Shown piece after piece: positions 272 to 63,927 of a stretch of 64,000 bases of DNA; positions within the stretch are counted from its first letter, which is position 1, and every line of letters begins with the position of its first letter. This DNA comes from Flavobacterium sp. UBA6721 (GTDB taxonomy: Bacteria; Bacteroidota; Bacteroidia; Flavobacteriales; Flavobacteriaceae). The stretch lies in NCBI GenBank assembly GCA_002454195.1, contig DKIJ01000018.1:8296-72295 (forward strand). Reading direction: 5' to 3'. Below the pieces are notes generated by a model. It saw only the letters and a list, made by a program, of their open reading frames with translations, was not told where the DNA came from and searched no databases. A program made the translations under genes and the position numbers.

Positions 272-3200
272 TTAGAAAGAAAGTTGAACGTTTAATCCGT
301 AAGTTCTAGTCATTGGAAAAGTCATCGCTTCAATACCTTTATAAATATTTGAACCGTTTAACATTCCTGTGTCAGGATCATATTGAGGAAAATTGGAAAT
401 ACTAAATAGATTTGTAGCATAAGCACCAAAACTCACTTTTTGGAATACCCCAATTTTGCTAACTAATTTTGCAGGTAAGTCGTAATCTAATCGTAACTCT
501 CTTAATTTTAAATAAGAAGTATCGAAAGTATTCATTTCTGTATTATTACGGTTCCAGATATAATTATTGTAATAGGTTTGAATATTATTAGTCACCGTAT
601 TATTTTTAGTATACGTAACTGTTCCATCCGTATTTTGAATGGCATTTACTCCTGGATGCACTAAACCATCGTATCTACCTTCAATAGAATTGTTAAGTTT
701 TCCTTGGTAGGATAAAGCAAAGTTGGTTACTGAAAAAGCATTCCCACCCATCTGAGCCGCAAAAGTAGCCGACAATGATAGATTTTTATACTTAATTCGT
801 TGTACCATACCCGCTCTCCAATCTGGATTAACTTTTCCAATTTTTGTATCTGGAGAATTATCCAGTACTGGATAACCTTCAGAATTTACGATGTGCATCC
901 CTGAAGCATCAATTTCATTTCCATTTTCATCAATATAAGTTGCTCCATCGGGTGCTCTTTGAAATCCTCGCCCGTAGATAACGTGCATTTCTTGTCCTAC
1001 ATAGGAATACACATAAGTTCTACTACCTATAGTAGTTCCCATATCGGTTTGTAGTGGCACACTTGGATCCCAACCTTCTTGAAGACTTTTTAATTTATTT
1101 TTGTTTTTTGACCAAGTAATATCAAAATCCCATTTAAAATTTTTAGTTCTGATAGGGGTAAAACTTGCTGATATTTCTAGTCCTTGATTTGAAATTTCTC
1201 CAGCGTTAATTGTCATTCCTGTTGCTCCAGTAATCTGATCGACATCAACTGAAACGATTTGATTAGTAGTTGAAGAATAGTAGGTAGTAACATCAAAACT
1301 TATTCTGTTTCTGAATAATTTGGCTTCAATTCCAGCTTCCCAACTTTCAACATTTTCGGGTTTTATTAATGGATTTGGAATATCCCCTGGTAAAGTATAA
1401 CCTCCAGGAAACGATGTGTTACTGTATACCTGATCTAATGAATAAGCTGATGTATCATTACCCACATTTGCCCATGAAAATCGGGTTTTTAGCATATCAA
1501 TCCAAGCTGCATTTTCCTTAAAATTAAATGTCTTATCTAATAAAACACTCGCTGCAACAGATGGGTAAAAATAAGACCAATTTCCTCTAGATAATGTACT
1601 TGACCAGTCATTACGACCTGTAATATCTAAGAAATAAGCATCATCCCAACTTAATGACACTAAACCATATAAACTATTAACCACTTTTTTACTTCTGTAG
1701 TTGTATGGATCTGGGTTAACGCCTGTTGGTAAATTTGTAGTATGGAAGATTCCTTCCTCACCTAATTGACTCAATGCTATTTTGTTATTAAAATATTCGT
1801 TAACACGATTATTTCCTCCTAACATCGTTGAAAGACCAAAGCGACCATTCTTGGATTCTTTGTTATAACGAAGCATAAAATCGTTATTATTTTCTACAGA
1901 CCTTACAGTTTGTTCTCTGTAAAATCCATTTTCATAACCTTCGGTATAAAAAGGCTTACGTTGTGTTCTAAATTCATCAGACCAATCTAAACCAGAACGC
2001 AAATCAAGTGTCAAACCTTTCAAAATGTCAAAAGTTAAACCAATACTTCCAAATACTCGATTTTTATCTTGGGTATTCAATGCTTCATAAAGCGTACGGT
2101 ATGGATTAAAAGATCCTGAAGCAGGGAAAACAAGCCCCATTCCGTTTTGACCAGCAGCAGACCAGTTTGCATAATTATAACGTCCATTAAAATATTCATT
2201 TTTCCAATCTTGAATACTACTTACATTAAATCCCCAAGCTAGAGCATACATCGGATTTGTTTCATCATAACCACTCACTGGCATATTGTCACTCGTCTTT
2301 TTATAATAATTAACTTTAGTATTTAATTTAATTTTGTCTGAAACCGGAGTATTAATAGCTAGCGAAATGGTATTTCGATTAAAACCTGTATTAGGCATTA
2401 TCCAATCGTTTTTAAAATCAGTTACCGAAAAACGCGTAGATGTTCCTTTCCCGTTATTACCATTTATACTAATCGTTTTATCTACTGTTAAACCAGTTTT
2501 AAAAAGCCCTGTATACCAATCATCTTGATACACCCAAGGTAACTTAGTAAAAGTATTGTCATCCCAATTTTTTGAAGCATATAAATACCTAAGCTTGTTT
2601 GCATCAAACTTTTCTCCGAAAGTATATCTGGAATAATTACGTGATTGAGCAACGCCATCAGAAGCCATTTCTGAAGAAATATCCCAAAGTGAATATTCAC
2701 TGGCTCCCATATCAGCACCATTTCCATACTGGGTTTGAAAATCGGGAAAATATCCTGCTCTTTCAAAAGTTACCGAAGAGTTTACACTAACACCAAGACC
2801 TTTAGTTGTTTTACCAGCTTTAGTTGTTATAAGAATTGCTCCATTAGCTGCTCTTGATCCATACAATGCAGCTGCTGCTGGACCTTTTAACACTGAAACA
2901 GATTCGATGTCATCAGGATTAATATCACTCATACCATCACCATAATCTACAGGAGCATCGGATTGAGCATAGTTACTTACAGCATTTGTAGAAGTCATTC
3001 CTGAATTTACGGGTACTCCATCGATAACGAACAATGCTTCATTATTACCATAATTCAAAGACTGATCTCCACGTAAAGTCACACGAATAGAACTACTTGG
3101 ACCTGAATTAGCCGTAGTAAATGACAATCCTGCAACTTTACCATTCAAACTATTTAACCAGTTTCCAGAAACCGTTTTGGTAATTTCATCACTTTTAACT

Positions 3201-3859
3201 TTAGCAACCGAATAACCCAAGGATTTCTCCTCGCGAGAAATATTCAATGCAGTAACCACTACCTCATCCATTGCAACTACATCTTCTTGCATGGTTACTT
3301 TATAAGCACCACCCGCCTTGATTGACTGCTCAAAATTTTGCATTCCTAAATAGGAAAAAACCAGAGTACTGTTTTCAGGAGCTTCTAAATTAAATTTCCC
3401 ATCAAAATCTGTCAGGACTACTGTATTAGTCCCTTTGACAAGAACATTTACAGCAATTAACGGTAAACCATTTACATCTTTTACTTCACCATACACCTTT
3501 ACTTTTTTTAAAGCTGTGAATGTGATTGTCGAGCCATTAATCATATAACTCAAGTGAGCATCGCGACTAATTTGATTTAAAACGGTTCTTAATTTTTGAT
3601 TATTAAAATTATAAGTAAACAGCTTTTTATTGCTCAGGACTTCATCTGAAAAACTGAACTGACAGTTTGCTTCTTTTTCTAATTGATTAAAAAGATGTGG
3701 TAATGTGGCGTTTTTTACATTAAAACTGATTGTTTTTTCGAGAGTACTTTGAGCCATTACAGATTGTGAAGTCATTCCCCACAACGCAAATAGCATGATA
3801 AAAAGCTTTAAAATTGTAAAGGACTCTAAATTCCTTTTTTTGTATAAATTTAATTTCAT
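272..3859 (-). CDS. SusC/RagA-like TonB-dependent outer-membrane transporter with STN signalling domain
   Basis: This 1195-residue protein imports a nutrient across the outer membrane using TonB energy. In order it shows: a signal peptide (about residues 1-36, ending VMAQ); a secretin/TonB N-terminal (STN) domain (about 40-115); a carboxypeptidase-regulatory-like beta domain (about 118-200) including VNVLVKGTNT; a plug domain (about 205-350) with VFVIDG-like and SVLKGPAAAALYGSRAANG motifs; then a long beta-barrel ending in Phe, as outer-membrane proteins do. The STN domain is the part that contacts a FecR protein in the periplasm, and a FecR gene and an ECF sigma gene lie directly upstream. 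So the transporter probably senses its own substrate and turns on its operon. Substrate unknown. Confidence 0.95.
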   Translation of the reverse strand: MKLNLYKKRNLESFTILKLFIMLFALWGMTSQSVMAQSTLEKTISFNVKNATLPHLFNQLEKEANCQFSFSDEVLSNKKLFTYNFNNQKLRTVLNQISRDAHLSYMINGSTITFTALKKVKVYGEVKDVNGLPLIAVNVLVKGTNTVVLTDFDGKFNLEAPENSTLVFSYLGMQNFEQSIKAGGAYKVTMQEDVVAMDEVVVTALNISREEKSLGYSVAKVKSDEITKTVSGNWLNSLNGKVAGLSFTTANSGPSSSIRVTLRGDQSLNYGNNEALFVIDGVPVNSGMTSTNAVSNYAQSDAPVDYGDGMSDINPDDIESVSVLKGPAAAALYGSRAANGAILITTKAGKTTKGLGVSVNSSVTFERAGYFPDFQTQYGNGADMGASEYSLWDISSEMASDGVAQSRNYSRYTFGEKFDANKLRYLYASKNWDDNTFTKLPWVYQDDWYTGLFKTGLTVDKTISINGNNGKGTSTRFSVTDFKNDWIMPNTGFNRNTISLAINTPVSDKIKLNTKVNYYKKTSDNMPVSGYDETNPMYALAWGFNVSSIQDWKNEYFNGRYNYANWSAAGQNGMGLVFPASGSFNPYRTLYEALNTQDKNRVFGSIGLTFDILKGLTLDLRSGLDWSDEFRTQRKPFYTEGYENGFYREQTVRSVENNNDFMLRYNKESKNGRFGLSTMLGGNNRVNEYFNNKIALSQLGEEGIFHTTNLPTGVNPDPYNYRSKKVVNSLYGLVSLSWDDAYFLDITGRNDWSSTLSRGNWSYFYPSVAASVLLDKTFNFKENAAWIDMLKTRFSWANVGNDTSAYSLDQVYSNTSFPGGYTLPGDIPNPLIKPENVESWEAGIEAKLFRNRISFDVTTYYSSTTNQIVSVDVDQITGATGMTINAGEISNQGLEISASFTPIRTKNFKWDFDITWSKNKNKLKSLQEGWDPSVPLQTDMGTTIGSRTYVYSYVGQEMHVIYGRGFQRAPDGATYIDENGNEIDASGMHIVNSEGYPVLDNSPDTKIGKVNPDWRAGMVQRIKYKNLSLSATFAAQMGGNAFSVTNFALSYQGKLNNSIEGRYDGLVHPGVNAIQNTDGTVTYTKNNTVTNNIQTYYNNYIWNRNNTEMNTFDTSYLKLRELRLDYDLPAKLVSKIGVFQKVSFGAYATNLFSISNFPQYDPDTGMLNGSNIYKGIEAMTFPMTRTYGLNVQLSF

Positions 3860-3907
3860 AATTTAGTGTTTTCTATTAAGCAAATAGGATTTAAAAAATT
3901 TAAGCTG

Positions 3908-3941
3908 ACTGGAATTGTTGACGCAATTCCAGTTTTTTTTT
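3908..3941 (+). terminator. Perfect 10-bp stem-loop plus T tract between fecR-like and susC-like genes
   Basis: ACTGGAATTG (3908-3917) and CAATTCCAGT (3924-3933) form a perfect stem with the loop ttgacg. A run of nine T follows on the plus strand. As an intrinsic terminator it points to the right, opposite to all neighbouring genes, so it would stop transcripts antisense to the SusC gene. On the minus strand it would be a hairpin in the untranslated leader of the SusC gene, without an immediate U tract. Confidence 0.55.
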
Positions 3942-3967
3942 CTAATTCTGGATTTTATTCATAGTGT

Positions 3968-4933
3968 TTATTTAATTAGTATCGAGTCGTTTTTAATTGT
4001 ATATTGAATACCAATCATAAATTCCATACTTTTAAGTACCGATTCAATTGGTTCATTTTTATAAGAAGCACGAATCTTTCGATTTAAAATTCTTTCGGAT
4101 TTACAATCTACTTTTACGTTATACCATTGTTCAATTCTGTTAAAAGCTTCTTTAGCTGTTATTGCATCAAAACGCAGTATGTTTTTATGCCAATCTGTAT
4201 AGACCGCAGCATCTACAGCTTCTTCAACCAAATCGCCTTCCACTGAATTGAAAACAACCTGAGTATTTTTTTCTAAAATGAAATGTTTTTTTGTTAATGT
4301 GTTTTCAACCCTAACCTTTCCGGATTTCACAATTACTTGAAATTGCTGTTTTTTATTGATAACATTAAAAGAGGTTCCTAAAACTGTTGTTTTGAAATTT
4401 CCAGATTGCACAATAAATGGTTTATTAGGATTCCTTTTAACTTGAAAAAAACCCTCTCCTTTTAATTCCACATTCCGTTTATCATCTACAAATTGTTTTG
4501 GATATTTTAGTGTAGCTCCAGAATTTAAAAAAACTAAAGAACTATCAGGAAGTACTATATTGATGCGTTCACCAGTTCTACTAGTAACTGATATATATTG
4601 AATTTCTTGAGGATTAAAAATGGTAGATTTTAAAAGAATTCCTAAACCCAACAAAGTGACTATAGTTGCTGCAACAGCCCAACTTTTACTAAATTTAATT
4701 AGCTTTCTTTTTTCAGATTGTTCAATTTTATAGCGTAGCATTTTTAATCCACGCTCTAAACTAAATTCATCTTCAAAGTTTATTGATTTACCTTGAAAAG
4801 TATCAAGTAATATATTATACTTCTTACTATATTCATCATTCAAAAGATAGTGTTCAAGCAAATACTTTTCTTCTTCTGAAGCGGTATTATTCAAATATCG
4901 TAATGCAATTTCGTAAAAAACTTCGTCTTTCAT
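3968..4933 (-). CDS. FecR-family anti-sigma factor
   Basis: A 321-residue membrane-bound regulator that holds the ECF sigma factor inactive and relays the signal from the STN domain of the transporter. Visible parts: a cytoplasmic N-terminal region (about 1-80) that would bind the sigma factor; one transmembrane helix near residues 86-105 (SWAVAATIVTLLGLGILL); a periplasmic FecR domain with the typical RTGERINIVLPDSS stretch and a GEGFFQV motif; and a C-terminal domain of the DUF4974 type (about 250-321) with FDAITAKEAFNRIEQWYNV. It lies between the sigma gene (82 bases upstream) and the SusC gene (108 bases downstream), all in one direction. Confidence 0.93.
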   Translation of the reverse strand: MKDEVFYEIALRYLNNTASEEEKYLLEHYLLNDEYSKKYNILLDTFQGKSINFEDEFSLERGLKMLRYKIEQSEKRKLIKFSKSWAVAATIVTLLGLGILLKSTIFNPQEIQYISVTSRTGERINIVLPDSSLVFLNSGATLKYPKQFVDDKRNVELKGEGFFQVKRNPNKPFIVQSGNFKTTVLGTSFNVINKKQQFQVIVKSGKVRVENTLTKKHFILEKNTQVVFNSVEGDLVEEAVDAAVYTDWHKNILRFDAITAKEAFNRIEQWYNVKVDCKSERILNRKIRASYKNEPIESVLKSMEFMIGIQYTIKNDSILIK

Positions 4934-20151: not shown

Positions 20152-21579
20152 ATGAACAAAACTGCTCAATCAGTATGGGATAACTGTTTGTCTTTCATAA
20201 AAGACAATATTCAAGACCAAGCTTACAAAACTTGGTTTGAACCAATCAAGTCAGTTGAACTTACCGATAATGCTTTATACATTCAGGTTCCTAGTAAATT
20301 TTTCTACGAATGGTTAGAAGAACACTATGTTAAATTATTGAAGGTTGCCCTTACTAAAGAACTTGGCAAAAATGCAAAGTTACTTTATAAAATTAAAATG
20401 GAGAACACCTATGGCAACAAACAACCGTTTACAGAACAGTTACCAAGTGCCAGTCGTCCTCCTGTAAAACCACAAAACGTAGATGCTCCGTTAAAAAACC
20501 TTGATCCTGAATTAAAAAATCCGTTTGTAATTCCTGGAATTAGAAATTTAAAAATTGAATCGCAATTAAATGCCAATTACAGTTTTGACAATTTCCTAGA
20601 AGGAGATTCAAATAGATTAGCACGTTCGGCTGGTATGGCTGTGGCCAATAAACCTGGTGGAACATCTTTCAATCCATTATTAATCTTTGGAGGAGTAGGA
20701 TTAGGAAAAACACACCTTGCACACGCTATTGGGGTTGAAATTAAAGACAAATATCCTGAAAAAACAGTACTGTATATTTCTGCTGAAATATTCACACAAC
20801 AATATATAGATTCTGTTAAGAAAAATAATCGAAATGATTTTATTCATTTCTATCAACTAATCGATGTATTAATCATTGATGACGTGCAATTCTTATCTGG
20901 AAAATCCGGTACACAAGACGTATTTTTCCATATTTTTAATTATTTGCATCAAAACGGAAAACAAGTAATCCTGACTTCTGACAAGGCTCCTGTTGATATG
21001 CAAGATATTGAGCAACGCTTATTATCTCGTTTCAAATGGGGATTATCTGCCGAATTACACCAACCGGATTATGAAACTAGAATTTCAATTCTAAAAAATA
21101 TCTTATTCCGTGATGGGGTAGAAATGCCAGACGAAATTATCGAATATGTAGCTCGTAACATCAAGACCAATGTTCGTGAATTAGAAGGAGCGATTATTTC
21201 ATTAATTGCACAATCTTCTTTTAACAAAAAAGAAGTAACTATCGAACTAGCCAAAAGCGTCGTAGAGAAATTCGTTAAAAATGTAAAACGCGAAATCTCT
21301 ATCGATTATATTCAAAAAATTGTTTCCGATTATTTCCAATTGGACGTTGAAACCTTACAGTCAAAAACAAGAAAAAGACACGTTGTTCAGGCGAGACAGT
21401 TAGCGATGTTTTTTGCCAAAAAATTCACGAAATCGTCTTTGGCTAACATCGGTTCTCAAATAGGAGATCGTGACCACGCAACAGTGCTACACGCTTGTAA
21501 AACAGTTGATAATCTCGTTGCTACTGATAAACAGTTCAAAAAATTTGTAGAGGATATCCACAAAAAACTAACGCTCTAA
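20152..21579 (+). CDS. dnaA: Chromosomal replication initiator protein DnaA
   Basis: DnaA opens the replication origin. From the ATG at 20152 (475 residues) domain I spans about 1-85 (SVWDNCLSFIKDNI), a short linker follows, and the AAA+ domain has Walker A GGVGLGKT (180-187) and Walker B LIIDD (240-244). The C-terminal DNA-binding domain carries RDHATVLHACKTV. The open frame extends back to 20056, but that extra part does not resemble DnaA. dnaN and gyrase genes are not adjacent, and I saw no DnaA-box cluster around the gene, so the origin is probably elsewhere. Confidence 0.97.
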   Translation: MNKTAQSVWDNCLSFIKDNIQDQAYKTWFEPIKSVELTDNALYIQVPSKFFYEWLEEHYVKLLKVALTKELGKNAKLLYKIKMENTYGNKQPFTEQLPSASRPPVKPQNVDAPLKNLDPELKNPFVIPGIRNLKIESQLNANYSFDNFLEGDSNRLARSAGMAVANKPGGTSFNPLLIFGGVGLGKTHLAHAIGVEIKDKYPEKTVLYISAEIFTQQYIDSVKKNNRNDFIHFYQLIDVLIIDDVQFLSGKSGTQDVFFHIFNYLHQNGKQVILTSDKAPVDMQDIEQRLLSRFKWGLSAELHQPDYETRISILKNILFRDGVEMPDEIIEYVARNIKTNVRELEGAIISLIAQSSFNKKEVTIELAKSVVEKFVKNVKREISIDYIQKIVSDYFQLDVETLQSKTRKRHVVQARQLAMFFAKKFTKSSLANIGSQIGDRDHATVLHACKTVDNLVATDKQFKKFVEDIHKKLTL

Positions 21580-22082: not shown

Positions 22083-22805
22083 ATGAAATCAAGCACGCTC
22101 TTTGGTAAACTCTATTTAATCCCAACAACAATGGGAGAATGCGACCCAATGGATGTTTTACCTCAAACCGTAAAAAGAACAATTGATTTCATAGACCATT
22201 ATATTGTAGAAAACGAAAAAACAGCTAGAAAATCCATCAAAGCCGTTCATCCAGAAAAAAAACAATCGGATTTAGTGCTTTTTGCATTGAACAAACACAC
22301 CGATGCTAAAGAACATCTAGACTTCATCAAACCTTTATTAGAAGGAAAAAATGTAGGCTTAATGAGCGAAGCAGGTTGTCCAGGCGTAGCCGATCCTGGT
22401 GCGGTGATTGTAAAACTGGCACACGAAAAAGGAATTCAAGTTGTTCCTTTAGTAGGACCTTCTTCCATTTTATTAGCCATGATGGCTTCGGGAATGAACG
22501 GACAAAGTTTTACTTTCCACGGTTATTTACCTATTGAAAAAGACGATAAAAGAGCCGCACTAAAAAGTTTAGAGCGTATTTCATTCGAAAAAAATCAATC
22601 TCAGATTTTTATCGAAACCCCCTATCGCAACAACAAATTAGTAGAAGATTTAATTCAGATACTACATCCTGAAACTCATTTATGTATCGCGACTGATATC
22701 ACGCTACCAACGGAATACATCAAAACCAAGAAAATTTCGGCCTGGAAAAAAGAAAATGTAGATTTACACAAACGTCCTACTATTTTTATTATTCATAAAA
22801 TGTAG
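22083..22805 (+). CDS. SAM-dependent methyltransferase of the RsmI/tetrapyrrole-methylase family
   Basis: A 240-residue protein with the tetrapyrrole (corrin/porphyrin) methylase fold. Seen are the N-terminal LYLIPTTMGE strand, MSEAGCPGVADPGA, and LVGPSSILLAMMASG, which match RsmI-type enzymes acting on 16S rRNA C1402. The middle part (FIDHYIVENEKTARKSIK) is more divergent than in standard RsmI, so this may be the second, Bacteroidota-specific paralogue with an unknown substrate. It is the third gene of the dnaA operon. Confidence 0.85.
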   Translation: MKSSTLFGKLYLIPTTMGECDPMDVLPQTVKRTIDFIDHYIVENEKTARKSIKAVHPEKKQSDLVLFALNKHTDAKEHLDFIKPLLEGKNVGLMSEAGCPGVADPGAVIVKLAHEKGIQVVPLVGPSSILLAMMASGMNGQSFTFHGYLPIEKDDKRAALKSLERISFEKNQSQIFIETPYRNNKLVEDLIQILHPETHLCIATDITLPTEYIKTKKISAWKKENVDLHKRPTIFIIHKM

Positions 22806-22958
22806 TTTTCTTTTTTTTAAACATATAAGTTTTTTTAGTTCTGAGTTATCATTTTTCAGAACACATTAGTTGAAATAAAATATTTTTATTTCAATCTCTT
22901 TATCTTATATGAACTTAAACAATTAACTATTAGACAATAAGCTTCATTAATATCAAAA

Positions 22959-22976
22959 ACTTATATGACTTATATG
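22959..22976. repeat. 18-bp word shared with 17149-17166
   Basis: Identical to the ACTTATATG tandem word upstream of ribD. The gap 22806-23043 is otherwise AT-rich without any coding frame, and holds related words (CTTATATGAAC near 22905, CATATAAG near 22824). Confidence 0.8.
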
Positions 22977-23043
22977 TTTATAATAAACTCTTGTTAATTT
23001 TCTCAAGAGCTTTACTTATTTTTAGACTTTCAAAAAATAAGTC

Positions 23044-24171
23044 ATGTCCAAACTTCCCAATATCACCACCAGCATTTTCACAGTAATGTCAAAAATGGCA
23101 GCTGAATACAATGCCATAAATTTATCACAAGGATTCCCAAATTTTCCACTTGATCAAAAACTTACTGATATCGTGGCTCAACTGACCAAAGAAGATGTAC
23201 ATCAATACACTCCGATGGCAGGTTCTCCGCCATTACTAAATAAAATTGCTAAGCTGGTTAAGCATTCGTACCAAAGAACAATTCAACCTGAAACCGAAAT
23301 ATTGGTAACAGCTGGAGCCACACAGGGCATTTTCAGTAGTATTCAGGCTTTGGTAGGTAGCGGAGACGAAGTCATCATTTTAGATCCCAGTTACGACTCT
23401 TACGAACCCAATGTTTTATTATCCGGCGGAATTCCTATCCGAATCCCATTAAATGACGATTACACCCCAAATTGGGATTTAATCGAAAAAGGCTGTAATG
23501 ACAACACCAAAATAATTGTTATTACCAATCCGCACAATCCTACGGGAAAGATTCTGTCATTGAACGATATCGAAAGACTGGAAAGCATCTTAGCAAAATT
23601 CCCCAATATCATTTTGTTATCAGACGAAGTTTACGAATACATTACTTTCGAACAAAAACACATCTCCATCCATACCCGTCCAGCTCTTCGTAATCGAGCA
23701 ATAATTACCGCTTCTTTTGGAAAAAGTTTTCACGTTACCGGTTGGAAAATTGGCTATGTCGTAGCGCCTGAATATTTAATGTATGAAATCAAAAAAGTAC
23801 ATCAATTTCTGGTTTTCAGCGTCAACAGTATTTCGCAGGCAGCTATTAGTGAATATTTAGATTCGGTTTCCGTGGAAGAAATCAGTCCGTTTTATCAGGA
23901 AAAAAGAGATTATTTCCGAAAACTACTCACCAACAGTCGTTTCGAATTAATGCCTTGCGAAGGCACTTATTTTCAGGTAGTGTCTTATAAGGCCATTTCA
24001 GATGAAAATGATGTGGATTTTTGCAAACGCCTCATTATCGAACACGGAGTTGCCGCCATTCCTATTTCTACTTTCTATGAAAATGGGAAAGATTTACGAT
24101 TGATTCGTTTTTGTTTTGCCAAGGATAATGCGACTTTGGAAGAAGCTGCGAGACGACTTTGTGCTATTTAA
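23044..24171 (+). CDS. PLP-dependent aminotransferase, methionine aminotransferase (YbdL/KAT) type
   Basis: A 375-residue class I/II aminotransferase. Seen: NLSQGFPNFP near the N-terminus, QYTPMAGSPPL, the substrate-site NPHNPTGKIL, LLSDEVYEYI with the conserved Asp and Tyr, and the PLP lysine in SFGKSFHVTGWKIGY. The SQGFPNF and YTPMAGSP signatures resemble methionine/kynurenine aminotransferase-like enzymes such as YbdL, which use methionine, phenylalanine or glutamine. It would act in the last step of methionine salvage or in aromatic amino acid turnover. Single gene, with no close partner. Confidence 0.88.
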   Translation: MSKLPNITTSIFTVMSKMAAEYNAINLSQGFPNFPLDQKLTDIVAQLTKEDVHQYTPMAGSPPLLNKIAKLVKHSYQRTIQPETEILVTAGATQGIFSSIQALVGSGDEVIILDPSYDSYEPNVLLSGGIPIRIPLNDDYTPNWDLIEKGCNDNTKIIVITNPHNPTGKILSLNDIERLESILAKFPNIILLSDEVYEYITFEQKHISIHTRPALRNRAIITASFGKSFHVTGWKIGYVVAPEYLMYEIKKVHQFLVFSVNSISQAAISEYLDSVSVEEISPFYQEKRDYFRKLLTNSRFELMPCEGTYFQVVSYKAISDENDVDFCKRLIIEHGVAAIPISTFYENGKDLRLIRFCFAKDNATLEEAARRLCAI

Positions 24172-25530: not shown

Positions 25531-25727
25531 GCTAATCGCATCCAGCATTTCAAAATCAATTAAACATTAAAACACACACTTACATTTGTAAATATTTATT
25601 GATATATTTGAAAAACAGAAATCGCAAAAAAATTGCGCCAATTCAGCCAAATTAGGCAGATTGCCGCAACTATATTGCGAACATTTATGAGTTAGTGGTA
25701 ATTTAAGAGACAACCTCTACAAATAAA

Positions 25728-26398
25728 ATGAACGCAAGCGAATTCAAAAAGCTATCAACAAAATTTTTAGCTCCACGACTTAGGGAAATAAGTTAGAAAG
25801 GAAGTGGTTTTAATTTTTATAGAACTACCGAGAATAACATTATACAAATTTTAGGTATTCAAAGTTCGTGGCATGGAGGCTCCGTTTACTGTGAGACTGC
25901 CATTCACTTTGACTTTATTCCTGATTTAGCAGGTAAAACTGACCCAAGTAAAGTTTCTTATGCAAGTTCTTGGTTAGACAAAGACTTAGCCCAAAGGGAG
26001 AAGGCGATTATCACTGGACATTCCGAGACAATGAAGATGACAATATCAAGTCTTTAAATCAAATATTTGAAGCATTAGAAAAATTTGGAGAAAAATTCTA
26101 TCAAGACTTCAATAATTTCCCCAGCCCATTTGACAGAATAAAACCTAATGATTTTTTGACTAAAGAGAGAGTTGTTCTTCTAGACAAATACTATGTTTAT
26201 AATGAGTTCAATTTTATTTGGCTACTAAAAGAGATAAACTTAAAAATTAATAAACCAGAAATTGCGAGACAGTTTTCTGAAATAGGAATTGACAAGGCTT
26301 CAAAATACTATAATAAACTAATTGACGAAACGAAAAGTAAAAAGCAAAAAGATTTGACGAAGGTATATTTGGACAATTTAATTAAACAATTAAAATAG
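25728..26398 (+). pseudogene. DUF4304-like protein, broken by a stop codon and a frameshift
   Basis: From the ATG at 25728 the frame reads MNASEFKKLSTKFLAPRL and meets TAG at 25794-25796; a single G-to-A change from TGG would explain it. It continues KGSGFNFYRTTENN, then GIQSSWHGGSVYCETAIHFD up to SYASSWL. Near 25976 the reading continues one frame off as RQRLSPKGEGDYHWTFRDNE and runs to the stop at 26396-26398. Joined, this gives a protein of about 220 residues resembling DUF4304, a family often found among accessory genes; function unknown. Family assignment is from memory of the pattern. The gene is followed closely by repeat copy A. Confidence 0.7.
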
Positions 26399-26412
26399 AA
26401 TAAACTGCCACT

Positions 26413-26547
26413 AACAGCTAAGGGATTCGTTGCGTGCGTAGTACGAACAATGAAGCCCGTGTTGAACGGAACCTCTCAACATCCATCCCTATGGAGTTTT
26501 CGACAAGCGAGTTAGATGAATTTCAAGAGGCTATTATGCCTCTTTTT
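26413..26547 (+). repeat. Structured repeat, copy A (attC-like fold plus terminator)
   Basis: Direct repeat of 27199-27335. The first 51 bases fold as nested stems: AAC (26413-26415) with GTT (26461-26463); GGGATTC (26422-26428) with GAAGCCC (26452-26458); GTT (26429-26431) with AAC (26446-26448); and CGTGC with GTACG around a GTA loop. AAT (26449-26451) is an unpaired bulge. About 60 conserved bases follow, then a terminator (AGAGGC/GCCTCT plus T5, 26526-26547). Confidence 0.8.
26526..26547 (+). terminator. Intrinsic terminator ending repeat copy A
   Basis: AGAGGC (26526-26531) and GCCTCT (26538-26543) with loop TATTAT, followed by T4-5 on the plus strand. Confidence 0.75.
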
Positions 26548-26724
26548 AGGATAAATTTTAAGCCGATTTATGACCTTATTTTTAATCCTAGAATTAAAAT
26601 TATTTTTGACTAATAAATAAATTCTGTAAGCTAAATCAGCTATATTTACAGTATAATCAACAAAAAAAACGTGGTCCGGTGGTTTTTAGACTAACTGACG
26701 TTGCCGATAATACTGAAAAACACT

Positions 26725-27185
26725 ATGAGAAAATATTGTTTTTAATTCCATTATTTTTAGCAGGTTGCTCAAAAAGTGATTTACAAAGTGACTTTCGAAA
26801 TGTCATGATTGATTATCAAAAAACTTATCCTGTCAAAAATCCAAGTAAAGGAAATATTTACATATATAGTGTTTATTTCTTTAAAGAGAAAGCCGATACC
26901 ATTTTCACAATCACTCGAAGTGGAGCTGGAATACCTGAATATGTAGCTAAATATAATTATAGATTCGGTGTGTATTCGGATAAAGAAATAAAAAACTTTT
27001 TTATAACTGATAGTTTTAAATTGAGTTCTAAACTTGTATTAAACTATAAGAGAAATTTTCCTGACAGTTTAATTTGGAAAAGAGAATCATTTCCCGAAAG
27101 TATAACACCGTTGTCAACATACAAATTGAAAAATGGTGTTCCAGTCCACATTAAAACTGATACGATATGGAATCATTGGGATTAA
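26725..27185 (+). pseudogene. Small lipoprotein gene, frameshifted in the signal peptide
   Basis: Codons from about 26734 to the stop at 27183-27185 encode KILFLIPLFLAGC and then about 140 polar residues with a likely beta-rich fold; no known family was recognised. LFLAGC is a clear lipobox. No ATG precedes it in this frame. The ATG at 26725 reads MRKYCF and then a stop; one extra A in the A4 run at 26730-26733 would give MRKILFLIPLFLAGC, a normal lipoprotein signal. So the gene is either a recent pseudogene, a phase-variable gene or a sequence error. The alternative, a GTG start at 26679, gives an N-terminus unlike a signal peptide. Confidence 0.65.
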
Positions 27186-27198
27186 GAGTACTACCGCC

Positions 27199-27335
27199 AA
27201 CAGCTAGAGTTTCGTTGGGCTCGCAGAGCCAACAATGAAACTCGTGTTGAACGGAACCGCTCTACATCCATCCCTATGGGGTTTTCGATAAATGAGTTAG
27301 AAGAATTTCAAGAGGCTATTCTGCCTCTTTTTTTT
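27199..27335 (+). repeat. Structured repeat, copy B (attC-like fold plus terminator)
   Basis: Second copy of the element at 26413-26547. Nested stems: AAC (27199-27201) with GTT (27246-27248); GAGTTTC (27207-27213) with GAAACTC (27237-27243), perfectly paired; GTTGG/CAAC and GCTC/GAGC around a GCA loop. AAT (27234-27236) is again an unpaired bulge. The stem bases differ from copy A, but pairing is kept (for example G-C in A becomes A-T in B at the second position of the long stem). It ends in AGAGGC-tattct-GCCTCT plus T7 (27311-27335). Confidence 0.8.
27311..27335 (+). terminator. Intrinsic terminator ending repeat copy B
   Basis: AGAGGC (27311-27316) and GCCTCT (27323-27328) with a TATTCT loop, followed by seven T on the plus strand. 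It would end the lipoprotein message. Confidence 0.85.
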
Positions 27336-62488: not shown

Positions 62489-62559
62489 CACGGGCGGAGG
62501 GATTCGAACCCCCATCAACGGTTTTGGAGACCGCTATTCTACCCTTGAACTACGCCCGT
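62489..62559 (-). tRNA. tRNA-Trp (anticodon CCA)
   Basis: A 71-nt cloverleaf on the minus strand: acceptor ACGGGCG/CGCCCGT with discriminator G, an anticodon stem GCGGT/ACCGT-like around the loop CTCCAAA (anticodon CCA), and T arm GGGGGTTCGAATCCCTC. CCA is not encoded. Lies between tuf and secE, in the same direction. Confidence 0.95.
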
Positions 62560-63855: not shown

Positions 63856-63927
63856 AGCCAATGACGGGATTTGAACCCGTGACCTCTTCCTTACCAAGGA
63901 AGCACTCTACCCCTGAGCTACACCGGC
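63856..63927 (-). tRNA. tRNA-Thr (anticodon GGT)
   Basis: A 72-nt cloverleaf on the minus strand: acceptor GCCGGTG pairs with CATTGGC (two G-U pairs), D arm GCTCAGGGGTAGAGT, anticodon arm CTTCC-TTGGTAA-GGAAG (anticodon GGT), T arm ACGGGTTCAAATCCCGT, discriminator T. CCA not encoded. Lies 54 bases upstream of tuf. Confidence 0.95.

Follow-up and report, generated by a model that had tools for sequence, protein, structure and literature searches.

A probable integron-like cassette platform in Flavobacterium sp. UBA6721 and relatives, apparently parasitised by an IS91-family transposon that targets its recombination sites

The window, a stretch of 64,000 nucleotides from a contig of Flavobacterium sp. 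UBA6721, contains two small genes, each followed by one copy (A or B) of a folded element of about 135 bp. The two copies are as initially annotated, being 85% identical over 127 nt (26421-26547 and 27206-27332). The initial annotation read the region as an array of gene cassettes in which the folded element serves as the attC site; the idea of a cassette system in Bacteroidota holds up in large part, but it is probably not the folded repeats that serve as attC. The features of the locus are as follows:

25592..25690, plus strand: attI-like site that contains a palindromic part and promoter-like TATATTTG (25603-25610) and abuts GTTAGTGG
25691..26416, plus strand: cassette 1, with start arm GTTAGTGG..., a disrupted gene, and end arm ...CCACTAAC plus the A of YAACA (arms complementary, 13/16)
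26417..26547, plus strand: element A, most likely the left end of an IS91-like, attC-targeting transposon (H1 hairpin, TGTTGAAC, terminator), the remaining transposon being absent
26548..26699, plus strand: remnant and "type B" junction, with promoter-like TATATTTAC at 26641-26649, then ...AACTGAC ahead of GTT; similar junctions occur elsewhere
26700..27202, plus strand: cassette 2, with start arm GTTGCCG..., a small gene with a lipobox-like LAGC, and end arm ...CCGCCAACA (arms 12/16)
27203..27333, plus strand: element B, most likely a second H1 left end with terminator; its likeness to IS91-end flanks extends slightly past the element

As had been noticed, CCACTAAC (26408-26415) and GTTAGTGG (25691-25698) are exact reverse complements of each other, and the proposal that cassette 1 opens at GTTAGTGG with its own R'-like arm was borne out. 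The DUF4304-like gene assigned to this cassette did not hold up as an intact frame: an in-frame stop and a frame change lie within 25691-26415, resulting from either decay or an assembly error, and its intact part (ORF 25970-26398, 142 aa) has no Pfam match; neither do the ORF of cassette 2 and three cassette genes of locus L108. The ORF of cassette 2 is listed as 26679-27185, its true start being uncertain. No Rfam family for attC, H1, or attI reached the gathering score in the window, L108, or L114. Junctions resembling type B were also found in L036, L038, L040, L048, and other loci; in these four and in the window (26641-26699) a promoter-like TATATTTAC/G precedes ...GACTGAC before GTTR, in place of the expected attC body.

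A profile made from 12 attI-like sites, none of them from the window, matched the window at 25592-25692 (E 3.5e-10); the reverse strand of this match gave E 9.4e-4, all other matches having E 5.3 or worse. This match marks GTTAGTGG as the junction of the attI-like site with cassette 1. The sites share a common form: promoter-like TATATTTG is accompanied by a palindrome whose end lies near TATATACAA/GTTR. They follow the integrase gene in L108, L098, L116, L097, and L045 (in the last the integrase is in two ORFs), and are also present where the fetched stretch contained no flagged integrase of this type, for example in L033, L046, and L050. Four successive attI-like sites, each followed by a cassette start, occur in genome G017 (L046:4391, 5485, 6423, 7461). 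Segments between CTGTGAAAAAAC and GTTTTTTCACAG were found just 5' of cassette starts (L040:11412, L045:9658 and 10575, L051:7558) and in the opposite orientation in L054:1488; their TATTTG-like box points toward the cassette in one orientation and away from it in the other, and the segment is possibly an invertible promoter.

The hairpin H1 at the left of elements A and B had been described as covarying, and over 72 distinct copies from related genomes this is the case: 96.3% of stem cells are paired, with both-side changes in 7/17 pairs, against 32-51% pairing in slid controls. In single-strand folding the first ~73 nt of A alone do no better than shuffles (z -0.75); the corresponding z values are -4.1 for the first ~73 nt of B, and -3.5 and -4.1 for the full elements A and B. 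A third H1 copy of the same genome is located on contig C33. In a DNA search with element A copies were detected in at least 36/150 genomes of the genus, a number that includes the genome of the window and is a lower bound because five candidates per genome were scored. A loose H1 pattern gave mostly false matches and was replaced by a profile. Used without the left flank, the profile found 75 distinct places, with a YAACA-type flank in 70 and variants in five; the flank of the plasmid copy is TAATA. In many of the stretches examined, H1 copies come after genes in arrays.

In L108, a 347-aa tyrosine recombinase is followed by cassettes whose separating sequences lack H1. These native sites are stem-loops of ~118-130 bp, unlike the 135-bp element, with the consensus YAACAGC, long stem, CnnAACGTTR in 18 aligned sites from six loci (L101, L105, L108, L110/L111, L114, and L116; seven stretches). 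Given the structure, 92.2% of stem cells in the 18 sites are paired and both sides change in 16/22 pairs, compared with 27-44% pairing in slid versions; taken alone, the number of further pair types was unremarkable (60/500 shuffles). The covariance model built from native attC-like sites, R1, gave 91 matches in 43 sources, a total that takes in the 18 sites used for training, stretches that overlap, and at least three shadows on the opposite strand; R1 had no match in the window. The bottom strand of the native sites folds with modest preference (mean -18.9 versus -18.1 kcal/mol for the top strand, p 0.002). The sites have the palindrome of attC, and only YAAC and GTTR in common with the integron cores: GTTRRRY fits 4/83 and RYYYAAC 14/83 sites, which does not agree with integron attC in the strict sense.

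The array integrase is a tyrosine recombinase of ~347 aa without the IntI-specific insert. No IntI match over the TIGR02249 cut-off was found in the 150 genomes of the genus, and the L108 integrase scores 203.8 bits against the IntI cut-off of 265, thus falling outside IntI in the strict sense. Its best NCBIfam match is the XerA-like NF040815, just under the cut-off (218.3 vs. 220), and it is 100% identical to a protein under the name Flavobacterium caseinilyticum. Between the catalytic Arg and HxxR, 30 of the 31 attC-linked proteins have 89-94 residues (in the remaining one no motif was found), ten XerC/XerD proteins have 92-99, and two IntI have 131; of two further IntI, one matched at a wrong motif and one at none, but all four have the ~40-residue insert in the alignment. 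XerC and XerD of Bacteroidota genomes are set apart in the tree with support 100/100, and IntI falls within the remaining wider group with weak local support; a single clade of attC-linked integrases was not obtained (9 label changes). The best PDB profile match is XerA (5hxy), next an XerC-like protein, and then IntI4 (2a3v) and XerD. The predicted model contains an extra N-terminal beta-rich domain of ~57 residues (pTM 0.54). The integrase of this system appears to differ from those of known integrons.

R1 sites are linked to this gene. Around 80 named loci, the best among the matches listed, 70/73 R1 matches are 3' of the gene and on its strand, although about twice as much sequence was covered upstream (618 kb) as downstream (315 kb). 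A downstream site is present in 29/80 loci and absent from 51/80; among loci with at least 2 kb downstream the numbers are 22/39 and 17/39. The linked loci include Flavobacterium, Algoriphagus, Cyclobacterium, Arundinibacter, and Natronoflexus, and a plasmid of Chryseobacterium sp. SNU WT5 contains six R1 sites downstream of the integrase. Integrase-linked arrays in L107, L108, L098, L099, and L105 have common upstream neighbours across species, which suggests a fixed chromosomal seat of the arrays. A plasmid cassette array (L287) includes genes for an IS110-family transposase and a group II intron (20299-21300 and 22765-24081), two kinds of element known elsewhere to target attC.

The complete form of the element that carries H1 was found in L035, where near-identical elements of ~2.4 kb alternate with different small genes, each complete element encoding an IS91-family transposase and a tyrosine recombinase. 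The transposase belongs to IS91 (NF033538, 440.7 bits vs. cut-off 125) and has the Y2 and zinc-binding domains (PF04986 and PF14319). Eight of nine loci searched yielded 13 copies with a recognisable recombinase ORF: five in L035, two in L037, and one each in L045, L047, L050, L053, L098, and L034, a Chryseobacterium oryzae plasmid. All 13 are bounded by H1 and GTTCAACA, with H1 at the left and GTTTAGTTCAACA or a near variant at the opposite, right end, and all are seated in ~120-bp attC-like sites. At 12 of the right ends an attC body begins that R1 recognises; at the thirteenth (L035) the body is shorter, ends in AACGTTAGTGG, and is not among the R1 matches. Homology between genomes stops at the right end GTTCAACA. 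The right end itself also reads CAACA, because of which a target duplication and a terminal sequence look the same beside a YAACA-type flank (70/75). Members of the IS91 family insert beside a fixed target sequence without target duplication. A and B are most likely left ends of this transposon, which inserts into cassette recombination sites. The arrays of L036 and L038 have H1 without the transposon body, for which one-ended transposition from the H1 end is our guess.

The limits of the cassettes were examined with 86 unselected cassette ends, the best GTT-start in the upstream interval being compared with its own end and with all others. Own start and own end agreed at a mean of 8.26/12 positions, the maximum in 10,000 permutations being 6.79; the own end was best or tied best in 41/86 cassettes and sole best in 21. 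At least 9/12 matches were found in 42/86 cassettes. In this set the 15 bases that open a cassette are complementary to its own end, with agreement at positions 1-10 in 35-42 and at positions 12-15 in 39-42 cassettes. At position 11, 40/42 have A in the start where the reversed end has G, which gives an A·C mismatch in the stem. Selection of well-matched cassettes inflates the matches, but not the fixed A·C mismatch.

Moreover, two cassettes are common to different species, with 91% identity. In the one shared by G029 and G147 identity stops at TAACA, beyond which one genome has H1 and the other a native attC; in the one shared by G056 and G142 it starts at GAC/GTT, upstream of which there is a native attC (R1 E 2.1e-14) in one genome and an H1/type B junction in the other. 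Judged from these sequence boundaries, the cassettes appear to be mobile with exact ends, one cut lying at YAACA and one at GTT. In a look for empty sites at the window locus, 7/30 udk loci (one of the 30 being that of the window's genome) had an SDR gene upstream of udk, without cassettes; the udk flanks are too diverged for the insertion point to be placed.

The genome of the window (2.4 Mb, 39 contigs, 74% complete) contains a candidate tyrosine recombinase, which the initial annotation had suggested looking for elsewhere in it. Contig C26 encodes an array-type integrase (2977-4020, minus strand), has an attI-like site, cassettes, and a native attC (E 1.9e-21), and ends in a cut H1; the IntI-profile matches listed for this genome are all on contigs other than the window's. 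In the whole genome R1 has six matches with E no higher than 0.001. Among sampled genomes of the class R1 sites were present in 172/247, in 157/215 of the good ones, and in 101/135 genera; in the phylum sample, which overlaps the class sample and like it includes the window's genome, they were present in 92/198. Among 40 R1-positive genomes hand-picked from the two lists, true IntI was found in seven, all outside the class; in one genome (G492) the listed R1 site is on the contig and strand of a non-IntI recombinase, and IntI is on a separate contig.

We consider it likely (probability about 0.8) that these loci represent an integron-type platform with a dedicated recombinase, parasitised by an attC-targeting IS91 element, and that the window is an integrase-less outpost of it. 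A recombinase gene, an attI-like site, and an array of same-direction cassettes with structured sites, the components of such a platform in the wide sense, were all found. At the sequence level it is supported by the limits and arms of the cassettes, by covariation in attC, by the linkage between integrase and attC, by the similarity of the attI-like sites, by the position of the transposon in attC sites, and by shared cassettes cut at those limits. Points that weigh against it are the integrase loci without a downstream R1 site, the fact that the own end is best in no more than 41/86 cassettes, the H1 arrays without transposon body, the modest strand preference of the native sites, and the unremarkable number of further pair types. 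The window would then consist of an attI-like site with a promoter-like box, which may drive cassette 1, and of two cassettes, with no integrase alongside. The candidate recombinase of the C26 type would recombine cassettes at GTTR, with the folded attC-like structure of ~120 bp as its site. Once a cassette is excised as a circle, its own 15-base start and end arms would form the outer stem, and the bottom strand would presumably be the substrate. The IS91-family (HUH) transposon would insert into attC right after YAACA, and in the window the attC bodies and the rest of the transposon would have been lost.

A and B as attC stems were dropped because native sites were found in L108 and H1 was linked to the transposon. 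The rival reading that H1 is a second, compact class of attC (~60 bp, YAACAGC ... GTGTTG), A and B being working attC sites as in the initial annotation and the transposon a neighbour or a cassette GTTGAAC...GTTCAACA, seems unlikely to us, though this transposon end may conceivably have acquired an attC function. H1 does end in YAAC and GTTG and has a covarying stem, the transposon ends GTTGAACGGAACC and GGTTTAGTTCAACA are roughly complementary, as cassette arms are, and the H1 arrays of L036 and L038 are devoid of the transposon body. In addition, H1 copies are alike within one genome, a genome-specific sameness also characteristic of attC sites of sedentary integrons. However, H1 folds better as the top strand in 66/72 copies, opposite to the native sites (bottom strand better in 56/83), which speaks against a normal attC; it is nearly always followed by the transposon sequence GTTGAACGG and not by varied cassette starts; the cassette arm pairs with the distant GTTR and not with the GTTG of H1; and one cassette gives way at the same base to H1 or to a native attC, depending on the species.

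We give considerably less weight to the view that the genes are passengers of one-ended rolling-circle transposition of the IS91/ISCR type alone, without an integron reaction. The alternation of IS91 copies with cargo in L035 would agree with it, as would their position next to cargo on the C. oryzae plasmid, where the order is integrase, VOC gene, IS91 copy, helix-turn-helix, AAA ATPase, DNA methyltransferase, helicase, and second IS91 copy (genes as named). Yet the L108 array comes directly after the integrase without H1 or IS91, and attC covariation, own-end arms, and integrase linkage also argue against passengers only. As to ordinary terminators or a REP-like intergenic repeat without any cassette meaning, the terminator-like hairpin and intergenic position of the repeats fit such an origin, but boundary-exact transposon ends, arms, and shared cassettes contradict it, and we regard it as highly improbable. 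The integron-type platform with an IS91 parasite could also be extended to a phylum-wide, IntI-independent class of integrons. IntI would have arisen inside or next to the wider group to which the integrases of this class belong, the 15-base arms of its cassettes would be read with a fixed A·C mismatch, and the IS91-type transposon ends (H1...GTTG, ...CAACA) would rebuild working attC-like sites on both sides; we propose this extension tentatively, at slightly less than even odds.

With integrons the system shares an integrase gene with an attI-like site, a promoter-like box, tandem small cassettes in one direction, folded sites of 118-130 bp with a G-TT-R core, complementarity of start and end, and somewhat better folding of the bottom strand. 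Integron attC sites are 57-141 bp long, with cores RYYYAAC and GTTRRRY around a palindrome (PMC3053210), and IntI is defined by an IntI-specific additional domain (PMC9668308). Unlike integrons, the present system has an integrase that is below the IntI cut-off, lacks the ~40-residue insert, and is encoded in the same direction as the cassettes; few of its sites have GTTRRRY or RYYYAAC, and its 15-base arms have the fixed A·C mismatch. The transposon resembles IS91/ISCR in its transposase (NF033538) and in the hairpin at the end downstream of the transposase; it differs in targeting attC sites and in carrying a tyrosine recombinase gene, which some IS91 members also carry. IS1111-attC elements, which have a transposase of the IS110/IS1111 type, insert into integron attC sites; specificity for such sites is common to both, whereas the transposase here is an IS91 Y2 enzyme. 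The recombinase is similar to XerA/XerC by the ranking of PDB profiles and differs in being a dedicated gene at the head of cassette arrays, in its split from XerC/XerD in the tree, and in the predicted extra N-terminal domain.

No published description of such a system was found in the literature searched, which comprised few subscription papers and no preprints and was available in part. Bacteroidetes are described as poor in integrons, a complete one in Salinibacter being reported besides those of Chlorobi and Ignavibacteriae (IntegronFinder 2.0, PMC9024848); eleven published attC models for individual taxa include none for Bacteroidota (PMC8352920), and Bacteroidota are listed among phyla with integrons (PMC8618304). 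If the proposed reading is true, most of the genomes sampled in the class have a parallel system, which is found on plasmids as well as chromosomes, holds a large pool of cassettes yet to be read, and would be missed by a search for the IntI-specific domain. The need of this domain for folded single-stranded sites, as well as the origin of IntI, would become directly testable. Among minor observations, a Flavo-1 RNA (RF01705; L114:1259-1337, minus strand) is located near the integrase-like ORF of that stretch, and two tRNA genes of the window (62489-62559 and 63856-63927, minus strand) are distant from the cassettes.
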